Of a DNA stretch of 39,031 bases, positions 13,010-17,139 are shown in pieces (positions within the stretch are counted from its first letter, which is position 1; each line of letters starts with the position of its first letter). The position numbers were made by a program, and so were the translations under genes. This DNA is from Acidobacteriota bacterium. GTDB lineage: Bacteria; Acidobacteriota; JAAYUB01. The notes under the pieces were generated by a model. It did no database searches and was not told the DNA's origin. It saw nothing but the letters and a program-made list of their open reading frames with translations. Where the stretch lies: positions 1 through 39,031 of the forward strand of contig JAAYUB010000076.1 of the NCBI GenBank assembly GCA_012517875.1. The letters run 5' to 3'.

Positions 13010-14062
13010 TTACGGCAACTCCGGATTCGGGGTCCGCCGCGGTTGCCCGACCACTTTCACCTCGACGGTTTTCTGGTCCGGGAGATCGGTTTCAATCACC
13101 AGTGTTCCGGCGAACGGCCCTCCCGTGTAGCCGGCCGGCAGGGTGACCGTCACGGTGTAGGCGGTTCCGGGCGCCACCTCCTCCAGGCGGGTCTTCAGAC
13201 CGGGTACGTCGCAGGTGACGCCGAGTATCTTGAACGGGGTGTTGATGGAGTTGAACCGGACCTGCCGCACAACATCCGACGGCACACCGGTCAGGGAGAA
13301 ATTCAGCCGATAGGGCACGGCTCGGACGATGCCGACCACCTCGCCGACGACCAGCATCGTCAGTGTCGGCTTTTTAGGGTGGTTGGTCTTCAGGATGACT
13401 TGTTCGCTGAAACGCCCGATGGGCGTGTCGGCGGGCAGGGTGATCCGGATACGCTGGTGGGCGATGTTGTTGAAACCGGTTTTTGAGTACTCCACCCGCA
13501 AGGACGGATGGGCGCACGTGATGGCCGTGATATCGGTTTGGTCCGCGTCCTTGCCGACCAGGGTGGCGTAGCGAACCTCCTGCTGCCCCTTGTTCACCTG
13601 GCGGAACGTGACCGTGGTCTGCTCCAGGGCCAGCGTGTTCACGATGTCGGCGCGGATGATGAGTTCCACCGAGGGGTGATTCAGATCGTTGGTGGACACG
13701 GTGATCTGTTTCATGAGTGCCCGGCGGCGATTGGCGGTGTTGAGGGTGACCTCGATGTTTCCTTCCCCGCCCGGGGGAATCTCCCTGGCCGAAACCAGGG
13801 CTGCCGTGCACCCTCAACCCGCTTTGACGCTGTGAATGATCAGCATCGCCTGTCCGACGTTTTTAAACTGAAACACGTGCTTGAGGGTGACGCCATCTTC
13901 CACAACACCGAAATCATGCTTCAGGGAGTCGAACCGGATCTCCGGCTGCGGCTTGCCCGTCGGGGCCTCGGTTGTCGCGTCCTGGGCGGCGGCCCAGCCG
14001 GCCCAGGCCAGCACCAGCGCCGCAATCGGCAGCACCGGGCGGAAAAGAGTTGGCGGAATCAA
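13010..14062 (-). CDS. Secreted DUF1573 protein with in-frame UGA, candidate selenoprotein
   Basis: A 350-residue frame read through one TGA at 13816-13814 (residue 83). Residues 1-26 are a signal peptide (TTG start at 14062 after GAGGAGG). The DUF1573 domain begins about residue 42 (FDSLKHDFGVVEDG, TLKHVFQFKNVG) and continues as IIHSVKAG-UGA-GCTAALVSA, REIPPGGEGNIEVTLNT and ITVSTNDLNHPSVEL. In this family the UGA position is the first Cys of the conserved Cys-Gly-Cys. The remainder, to 350, is a second immunoglobulin-like region. The frame on both sides is intact, and no ribosome site precedes the next ATG (13714). A perfect 6-bp hairpin starts 13 nt after the UGA. Selenocysteine is therefore possible; a TGC-to-TGA mutation or base-call error is the alternative. 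The biochemical role of DUF1573 is unknown. Confidence 0.75.
13783..13800 (-). promoter_or_regulatory. SECIS-like hairpin after in-frame UGA
   Basis: Read on the minus strand, CCCTGG-TTTCGG-CCAGGG forms a perfect 6-bp stem. It starts 13 nt after the UGA and its loop starts 19 nt after, close to the geometry of the E. coli fdhF element. The loop lacks the usual early G unless the closing G-C pair opens. A structure prediction or reporter test would be decisive. Confidence 0.4.
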
Positions 14063-14096
14063 GAGGGTGTTCCTCCTCAGAGGGATCAGAGTGTCA

Positions 14097-14125
14097 TCTA
14101 TACATCATTCCGGCGCCGAAGCCAA
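14097..14125 (-). promoter_or_regulatory. Promoter of DUF1573 gene
   Basis: On the minus strand TTGGCT (14125-14120) and TATAGA (14102-14097) are 17 bp apart, with a ~28-nt leader to the TTG start. The divergent lipoprotein gene has a TAAAAT -10-like box at 14201-14206. Confidence 0.5.
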
Positions 14126-14237
14126 GCGGGAATGTCGGCGGCGGAGCCCGCGGCGCGTCCCGTTCCTCACAAAGGCTGAAACATCCGGGGGGCCGCTCAG
14201 TAAAATAGTCGTCACCTTGAGACGGAGGTTCGAACAC

Positions 14238-14783
14238 GTGGGCAAATGGGTGATCGGCGGTTTGCTGTTGATGCTGGGGGCGGGGCTGGCGGGCTGCCGG
14301 CTGACCCCCGGCGGGGCGGGGGAGGAGGTCGCGCCGGCTCCGCCGGCAGACCCGATGGATCTGGTGGGAGAACTCACCGAGCTGCAGGGGGCATACCCGC
14401 TGAAAGTGATCAGCGCCCCGGGGCCGTATGGGCCCGGCGAGATCGGCGAGCTGGCCGGCGAACGGGAGCTGCTGCTGCGCGACAACGATTTCGTCCAGGG
14501 AGTGACCGGCGAGTTCCAGTTCTTCGACTTGCCGGGTTTGACCTTTGCCGTTACAATCTACCAGATGGCGTCGCCCCACGGCGCGCGGCGTGTGTATCAG
14601 GCGGTGGCGCCGTTCGGGGACAGCTGCCTCCACCTGGGCGAGGAGAACCGGCAGTCGCCGCTGGGGGTGGCGTTCCACCGCGACGTCTACTACGTCGAGC
14701 TGGTGGGCCGGAACGTGGACGAGCGCCTTTCCCGCGAGATCACCATGCTGGCGGCCGAGCTCGACAATCACTTGCAGCGCTGA
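14238..14783 (+). CDS. Lipoprotein of unknown function
   Basis: A 181-aa predicted lipoprotein: a short basic start (MGKW), a hydrophobic stretch and the lipobox LAGC with Cys20. The mature part begins with a Pro/Ala-rich linker and folds from about residue 35 (MDLVGELTELQGAYPL). The segment VTIYQMASPHGARRVYQAV recalls acidobacterial periplasmic proteins in which an ExY..sPxxA helix follows a beta strand (DUF6599-like), but the match is weak and I make no assignment. The start is the GTG at 14238 preceded by GGAGG at 14224-14228; the much longer open frame from 13881 has no ribosome site. It is first in a unit of three genes: the next starts 36 bp on and the third overlaps the second. Confidence 0.75.
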   Translation: MGKWVIGGLLLMLGAGLAGCRLTPGGAGEEVAPAPPADPMDLVGELTELQGAYPLKVISAPGPYGPGEIGELAGERELLLRDNDFVQGVTGEFQFFDLPGLTFAVTIYQMASPHGARRVYQAVAPFGDSCLHLGEENRQSPLGVAFHRDVYYVELVGRNVDERLSREITMLAAELDNHLQR

Positions 14784-14819: not shown

Positions 14820-15281
14820 GTGAACGTCACCGGATCACAGGAACAACTGATCCGGCTCGCAGAAGGTGTCCGCGAGCTGTACCTGGCGCTGGCCGACCGT
14901 TTTGCCGAAACGGAACAACTGCGCGCGCTCTGGCACGATCTGGCCCGCGGCGAGGCCGAGCAGGCGACCGGCCTGCGCCGGCTGGCGCCGGCTGTAGCCG
15001 TCAGCGGCGGCCCGGATGACCCGGTGCTGGCCGAGGTGCTGCTGCGGCACCTGGCGTCCCTGGCGGAACGCGTCCGCCGCGATCGGCTGTCGCCGGAGGG
15101 CGCCCTCGCGCTGGCCTTTGGCGTGGAGTGCTCCCTGGCCGAACGCCTGGCGGCCGTGGTGGAACAGTCGGGGGCGCCGGCCGCGTGGCTCGACCCGTTT
15201 CGTGCGGCCGGCCGGGAGCACCGTCAGAAATTGCGCGATGCCGCCGCCCTCCGCGGCGTGTTCCTGCCGCCGGATGAGTAA
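14820..15281 (+). CDS. Small all-helical protein, perhaps degenerate ferritin-like
   Basis: A 153-aa protein without signal peptide. The sequence predicts four amphipathic helices. LYLALADRFAETEQLRALWH followed by DLARGEAEQA recalls the first helix pair of rubrerythrin/ferritin-like proteins, but the ExxH ligand pattern in helix 2 is lost (GEAEQA). Helix 4 retains REHRQKL. If related to that superfamily, it may have lost a complete diiron site. The GTG at 14820 with GGAG just upstream is the best start. Its last 8 bp overlap the start of the B12-type radical SAM gene, so the two are translationally coupled and probably act together, for example as a binding or accessory subunit. The role is inferred only from this coupling. 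Confidence 0.7.
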   Translation: MNVTGSQEQLIRLAEGVRELYLALADRFAETEQLRALWHDLARGEAEQATGLRRLAPAVAVSGGPDDPVLAEVLLRHLASLAERVRRDRLSPEGALALAFGVECSLAERLAAVVEQSGAPAAWLDPFRAAGREHRQKLRDAAALRGVFLPPDE

Positions 15282-17139
15282 GCCGCGCCGCCCCCCCCGA
15301 CACCTGCTCTGGGTGCAGCTCGGGGTGCCCGACGCCGAGCAGGCGTTCGCCGACAGCAACCTGCCCGTCGCCGCGGGATATGTCCTCGGCCACTGTTGCG
15401 CCCGCGGCCTGCTGGACGGCCTGACGTGGGCGATCCTGGACGAGGCCACCGCCACCTACGCCGGCGATGCCGGTCTGCTCGGAGCGGTGCTGGACCACCG
15501 GCCCGATGTGTTGTGCTGCTCCGTTTACATGTGGAACGTGGAACGGTCACTCTGGCTGGCGGGACGGGTACGGGAGAGCCATCCGGAGATCCGGATCATT
15601 CTGGGCGGGCCGGAGGTCAGCCCCGGCAGCGTCTGCTGGGACGACCCCACCGCCGACATCCTGGTGGCCGGCGAGGGTGAGACGGGCCTGCCCCTCGCCC
15701 TGGCGGCGCTGGACCGCGCTGACTCCCGGCCGATACGGATCGTGGCGCCCCCGCTGGCGGCGCTGACCGGGCTGGCCGATCCCTACTCCCAGGGGATCCT
15801 GCCGCCGGGCCTGAAGGGGAACTGCCTCCTGGAAACCACGCGGGGGTGCCCCTGTCGCTGCCACTACTGTTTCTATTCGAAAAGCGCCCGGACCGTCCGC
15901 CACCACGACGAGGCCGCCATCCGCAACTTCTTCCGGTGGGCCGCCGCCGACGGCCGGGTCCGCGACGTCTACCTGCTGGATCCGTCCTTCAACCGCGCCC
16001 GCGGCACGCGGGGCCGCCTCGACAAACTGGCCCGCTGGAACCGGGGCGGGTTGGATCTCCACACCGAAACCCGCCTGGAGGGGATCGACGCGGCGCTGGC
16101 CGCGGCCTACACCCGGGCCGGTTTCCGCTCGCTGGAGGCGGGCCTGCAATCCATCCACCCCGCCGTCTGCGCCGGCGTCGGTCGCCGGCTGGATCTGCCG
16201 GCCTTCGCCACCGGGGCGGCGCACCTGGTGACGGCGGGGTTGAAGCTGGACATCGGGGTGATCCTGGGCCTGCCCGACGACGATCCGGCCGGCTTCCGCG
16301 ACACGCTGGTCTGGTTGCGGAGGCGGGACCTGGCCGAGGCGGCGGAAGTGTTTCTCCTGAGCCTGATTCCGGGGACGGCGCTGCGCGAGCGGGCGGCGGC
16401 CGAAGGGTTCCGCTGGATGCCCCGACCGCCGTACTACCTGCTCGCCGCCGGCGCGTGGGACGAGACCCGCCTCCTGCAGGGCATCTACGACGTCGAGGAG
16501 ATTCTGGACCGTCAGCACCACGTGGACATCCCCCCGTACGACGCCGAGCCGGCGCCGGGCGGCTGGGTCCAGCGCATCCGCCTGAACGCCGATTCGCCCG
16601 GCGCCGCGGCGGCGCTCGCCGCGGCGATACCCCGGCTGGCTGCGGTGGTCACCCTGGACATCGATTGTCACGATCCCGACCGCGCCGCCCCCCGCATCGC
16701 CGCGCTGGGCGAGCGGTTGCTCGCGGCCTGCCCGTTCGGACTGTCCCGCATGGTGCTGCGGGGCGCCCGCCCCGTGTCGTCGGACGCGGCGGTGACCATC
16801 CAGGCGGCCTTCGCCCGAGCCGACCAGTACTGGAACCGGGTGAACTACTTCCGCGACGACGCCACCGGCCTCTACTCCTGCCGGCTGTTCCAGCGGGTGC
16901 CCGCGGCCGAATGGCGCGACTGGCTCGACCGCCTGCCGGCCTGGCTGGACCTGGTGTTCGAGCTGCCGCCGGATCCGACCGAGTTCGACCGGCTGGCCGG
17001 CGCGCTGTACGAGCGCCTGCGGCCCGGCCTGAGCTTCGTGGTCGGCGGCGACGGCGTGGGCGAGGATTTCCGGCGGCACATCGTGCGCGCGGTGGAGGAA
17101 ACGGGCGTTTTCAGCCGGTGGCTGCCGGCGGTGGAGTGA
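15274..17139 (+). CDS. B12-binding-type radical SAM enzyme
   Basis: A 621-aa enzyme. The N-terminal 150 residues form a Rossmann-like cobalamin-binding-type domain (VYMWNVERS, IILGGPEVSP, ILVAGEGE) but lack the DxHxxG motif, as in several subfamilies, so cobalamin use is uncertain. The radical SAM domain follows with Cys192, Cys196 and Cys199 in RGCPCRCHYC, which bind a 4Fe-4S cluster that cleaves S-adenosylmethionine. The barrel runs to about 430 (DLHTETRLEG, GLQSIHP, GVILGLPDDDP). The last ~190 residues are a family-specific domain. The substrate is unknown. The ATG at 15274 overlaps the previous gene by 8 bp; longer frames from 15016 run through that gene and are rejected. The operon partners are a lipoprotein and a helical protein. 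Enzyme class is certain. Confidence 0.9.
   Translation: MSKPRRPPRHLLWVQLGVPDAEQAFADSNLPVAAGYVLGHCCARGLLDGLTWAILDEATATYAGDAGLLGAVLDHRPDVLCCSVYMWNVERSLWLAGRVRESHPEIRIILGGPEVSPGSVCWDDPTADILVAGEGETGLPLALAALDRADSRPIRIVAPPLAALTGLADPYSQGILPPGLKGNCLLETTRGCPCRCHYCFYSKSARTVRHHDEAAIRNFFRWAAADGRVRDVYLLDPSFNRARGTRGRLDKLARWNRGGLDLHTETRLEGIDAALAAAYTRAGFRSLEAGLQSIHPAVCAGVGRRLDLPAFATGAAHLVTAGLKLDIGVILGLPDDDPAGFRDTLVWLRRRDLAEAAEVFLLSLIPGTALRERAAAEGFRWMPRPPYYLLAAGAWDETRLLQGIYDVEEILDRQHHVDIPPYDAEPAPGGWVQRIRLNADSPGAAAALAAAIPRLAAVVTLDIDCHDPDRAAPRIAALGERLLAACPFGLSRMVLRGARPVSSDAAVTIQAAFARADQYWNRVNYFRDDATGLYSCRLFQRVPAAEWRDWLDRLPAWLDLVFELPPDPTEFDRLAGALYERLRPGLSFVVGGDGVGEDFRRHIVRAVEETGVFSRWLPAVE

Follow-up and report, generated by a model that had tools for sequence, protein, structure and literature searches.

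A predicted selenoprotein of the known DUF1573 (OS_HP2) family, with a Sec-Gly-Cys motif, in Acidobacteriota

In the selenoproteome reviews of 2022 and 2026, the "DUF1573 domain-containing protein" (pfam07610) with a UGC motif is given as a predicted selenoprotein family (PMC9312934, PMC13188914). As far as the listings in these reviews go, the family is credited to Zhang & Gladyshev 2007 and to a symbiont of Olavius algarvensis (PMC9312934, PMC13188914), and Acidobacteria are not mentioned in either review. Two further groups of proteins are close enough to be compared with the one described here, which is encoded within a 39,031-nucleotide stretch of DNA from an Acidobacteriota bacterium (hereafter the window). 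The UGC-containing Prx-like/TlpA-like selenoprotein (PMC9312934, PMC13188914) has the U-G-C motif in common with the window protein, but it adopts a thioredoxin-like fold (pfam00578), whereas the window protein gives no pfam00578 match. The Cys-form DUF1573 proteins (PF07610), on the other hand, have the same Ig-like domain and carry CGC where the window protein has UGC.

Judged by its sequence and that of its relatives, the gene in the window is a true selenoprotein gene and an additional member of the family that is already known. It shares both the domain and the U-G-C motif with the OS_HP2 (NF041425) DUF1573 selenoprotein of Zhang & Gladyshev 2007. According to the review listing, that protein comes from a deltaproteobacterium, whereas the present one is from Acidobacteriota; further differences from the 2007 protein, as it is listed there, are the three Ig-like domains found here and the fusions to cytochrome c in two relatives. 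The window protein scores 104.6 bits against the NCBIfam model NF041425, "OS_HP2 family (seleno)protein" (curated cut-off 100), when Cys is written for Sec, and 85.7 bits in a six-frame search in which the stop is left in place. Residues 42-138 (13649-13939, minus strand) match Pfam DUF1573 (PF07610) with an E-value of 3.9e-30 and 104.2 bits, compared to a gathering cut-off of 26.1. The proposal of the first-pass annotation that this would be a new Sec-containing family hence has to be given up, since DUF1573/UGC is present in both reviews and the NF041425 cut-off is passed. What the present analysis adds is the wide spread of the family in Acidobacteriota, a covarying SECIS element and the two cytochrome c fusions.

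The gene occupies positions 13010-14062 of the minus strand, a detail left unstated in the first-pass annotation, and comprises 350 residues including Sec83 when its single TGA is read as a residue; there are no further stops, so that the description of an otherwise intact frame interrupted once was confirmed. Translation starts at a TTG codon (14062-14060), 9 nt downstream of the Shine-Dalgarno sequence AGGAGG (14072-14077, minus strand), and both elements are kept in two congeners (L026, L027). The TGA is codon 83 (13814-13816, minus strand), flanked in translation by HSVKAG-U-GCTAALVSA, and in an alignment with 30 relatives it falls on the leading Cys of C-G-C, a motif without variation there, which is the position that had been proposed for it. 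If the UGA acted as a stop, the product would be truncated to 82 residues. The gene is real and intact.

The encoded protein probably begins with a signal peptide (13982-14062, minus strand), which we recognized by eye from a hydrophobic stretch ending in WAAAQ and which coincides with a predicted helix at residues 12-24. In the AlphaFold2 model (mean pLDDT 89), an N-terminal helix is followed by three Ig-like domains, the first of which is the DUF1573/HYDIN-like domain with the UGC motif, located in a loop that joins strands 74-81 and 86-90. The N-terminus looks like a signal peptide, and the protein would thus be exported to the periplasm. A sequence search of the PDB gave weak matches only (2qsv, E 0.009), and the fold search was discarded as a guide to function because its matches were generically Ig-like, with a ciliary central apparatus protein on top.

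The UGA at 13814-13816 is almost certainly decoded as selenocysteine. Since TGC and TGA are one base apart, the codon could stem from an error in sequencing or assembly or from a TGC-to-TGA mutation of recent date, leaving a pseudogene or a truncated protein; the first-pass annotation had named a one-base mutation or error as its alternative. This reading is now so improbable that it can be neglected, as three further genomes have TGA at the same codon, namely G001 (87% identity) and G002 (68%) of the same genus and G003 of the same family at only 36% identity; ordinary Cys in close relatives, together with a decayed copy here, had been named in the first-pass annotation as an objection. Moreover, purifying selection acts upstream (dN/dS 0.18-0.27) as well as downstream (0.34-0.48) of the UGA, and the coding sequence is conserved before and after it. 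Among 94 distinct DUF1573 domains collected from genomes of the phylum, the motif column holds TGA in 40 and Cys in 54, which answers the question of the first-pass annotation whether other homologues have UGA at this column. All 40 TGA-bearing domains have it precisely there and nowhere else within the domain. On a quick tree, built from this short domain, the fewest Sec/Cys changes that account for the distribution are 12, a rough number. One candidate, L058 (G096:C1), was rejected as a Sec form, as its motif is CGC and the TGA in the search match falls outside domain 1.

Judged by this distribution, Acidobacteriota commonly carry a selenoprotein family that had been listed but hardly studied, and the many natural Sec/Cys pairs represent material for testing why Sec is used. 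It also has a practical side, in that gene callers which stop at UGA will split such genes in two.

The presence of the Sec machinery in the genome likewise argues against an error or mutation. The window belongs to an Acidobacteriota MAG of 4.02 Mb (182 contigs, 96% complete; G000), and the search for selA, selB, selC and selD that the first-pass annotation had suggested, with missing machinery as a possible objection, found all of the components, namely SelA (474.5 bits), SelB (320 bits, the gene being cut by a contig end), SelD (372 bits) and a tRNA-Sec with a UCA anticodon (79.3 bits). The SelD gene (L081, G000:C121, minus strand, near 2100) has an in-frame TGA of its own, in RCAGUASK, and SelD is therefore probably a selenoprotein itself, so that the genome seems to employ UGA for Sec at another locus as well. 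SelB scored above the cut-off in 16/16 other Sec-form genomes searched, and tRNA-Sec is present in 15 of 17 Sec-form genomes, the window's own counted. The two in which it was not found, G002 and G003, are fragmented MAGs, and SelB is present in both. By itself the association with tRNA-Sec is weak (15/17 vs 51/82, p 0.03).

Directly 3' of the UGA lies a SECIS-like hairpin (13783-13800, minus strand) with the arms CCCTGG (13800-13795) and CCAGGG (13788-13783) around the loop TTTCGG (13794-13789). The loop begins 19 nt past the UGA (UGA+20), and the six-base-pair hairpin was thus found as the first-pass annotation had described it. Taken alone, this hairpin is within chance (p about 0.1 in codon shuffles), and its apical loop would have a G at position 1 or 2 only with the closing pair opened. 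A role as SECIS element is backed by comparison across the family. As the domains differ in length by a codon and are hence unsuited to a fixed-register alignment, the hairpin of each domain was scored separately, with a score of at least 15 defined as strong. Of the Sec forms, 36/40 have a strong hairpin, whose loop almost always lies at +18 to +22 after the UGA, vs 1/54 of the Cys forms, which otherwise lack the SECIS-like element (p 2.5e-20, an inexact value because related sequences were counted separately). Close relatives show compensatory changes in the arms, namely between G000 and G003 (CCCTGG/CCAGGG vs TCTTGG/CCAAGA), between G004 and G005 (CCTTCTC/GAGAAGG vs TCTTCTC/GAGAAGA) and between G084 and G040 (CATGCTT/AAGCATG vs CGTGCTT/AAGCACG). 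In addition, the synonymous sites of the 17 codons past the UGA (13763-13813, minus strand) are frozen, with changes at 0/16 sites vs 84/200 elsewhere when three congeneric genomes are compared (Fisher p 2.6e-4). Across the sequences compared, the evidence from hairpins and synonymous sites is far beyond chance.

The same observations bear on the possibility that the UGA is genuine but handled by another route, be it recoding to Trp or Cys, simple readthrough, or a restart at the ATG at 13714, the next in-frame ATG about 100 nt past the TGA. The nearby ATG lends this route some appeal; however, no Shine-Dalgarno-like sequence was found on inspection of the sequence ahead of 13714, as had already been remarked in the first-pass annotation, and the codons between the UGA and this ATG are conserved, the first 17 of them without synonymous change. 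The hairpin and the occurrence of SelB match Sec, and the alternative residue at this column is Cys rather than Trp. We consider another route very unlikely. The family-wide hairpins, the compensatory changes, the frozen synonymous sites and the dN/dS values below 1 therefore exclude error, pseudogene and restart, and the original suggestion of a candidate selenoprotein is borne out by the machinery, the conserved TGA and the hairpins. In the proposed mechanism, SelB and tRNA-Sec would decode the UGA as selenocysteine under the direction of the hairpin just past it, and the product, a DUF1573 (OS_HP2) protein with three Ig-like domains, would be exported and have Sec-Gly-Cys in place of Cys-Gly-Cys.

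With regard to the function of the motif, two different roles can be imagined. Sec commonly stands in for redox-active Cys. Two distant members of the family within the phylum carry a cytochrome c domain C-terminal to the Sec-DUF1573 domain, as fusion proteins, namely L062 (G063:C252, 867-1613, plus strand) and L063 (G094:C23, 599-1324, minus strand), with Cytochrome_CBB3 E-values of 2e-10 and 8e-11, respectively. On these two grounds we favour a redox role, in which the periplasmic U-G-C would probably form a selenenylsulfide reversibly and so pass on electrons or reduce a substrate. Alternatively, with Sec still being inserted, the U-G-C motif could serve to bind a metal or metalloid, such as copper, mercury, zinc or an iron-sulfur centre, instead of acting in redox chemistry. 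CxC is a frequent metal motif, and the strict invariance of CGC in the Cys forms as well would suit metal ligation; however, no metal-handling genes were seen adjoining the selenoprotein gene and the cytochrome c fusions suggest electron transfer, so that we regard metal binding as doubtful and less likely than a redox role. Pursuing the redox role further, one could tentatively speculate that OS_HP2/DUF1573 of Acidobacteriota is a Sec-dependent carrier in a periplasmic electron-transfer or detoxification pathway with c-type cytochromes, with many Sec/Cys swaps (at least 12 in the quick tree), a scenario that we hold to be possible but rather unlikely.

The operon context was rejected as a clue to function, as the neighbours vary by genome and no consistent pathway emerges. 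GtrA-type proteins are encoded near the genes of G000 and G003, and tandem Cys-DUF1573 genes occur in G004 and G005, where a Sec-form gene is directly followed by a Cys-form one as if in a single operon (L057, G004:C58; L056, G005:C329). The source genome also contains two adjoining Cys-form DUF1573 genes at another locus (L072, G000:C51:35500-38500), and the same pair is found in G001 (L073). A gene for an O-antigen ligase (Wzy_C) adjoins the cytochrome fusion in both G063 and G094. Within the window, a long antisense ORF (13881-14783, plus strand) extends across the beginning of the selenoprotein gene; its 5' end is probably spurious, with a likely lipoprotein start near 14246. A gene for a B12-binding radical SAM protein (15016-17139, plus strand) lies near the selenoprotein gene, in a neighbourhood that is retained in G001 and G002.
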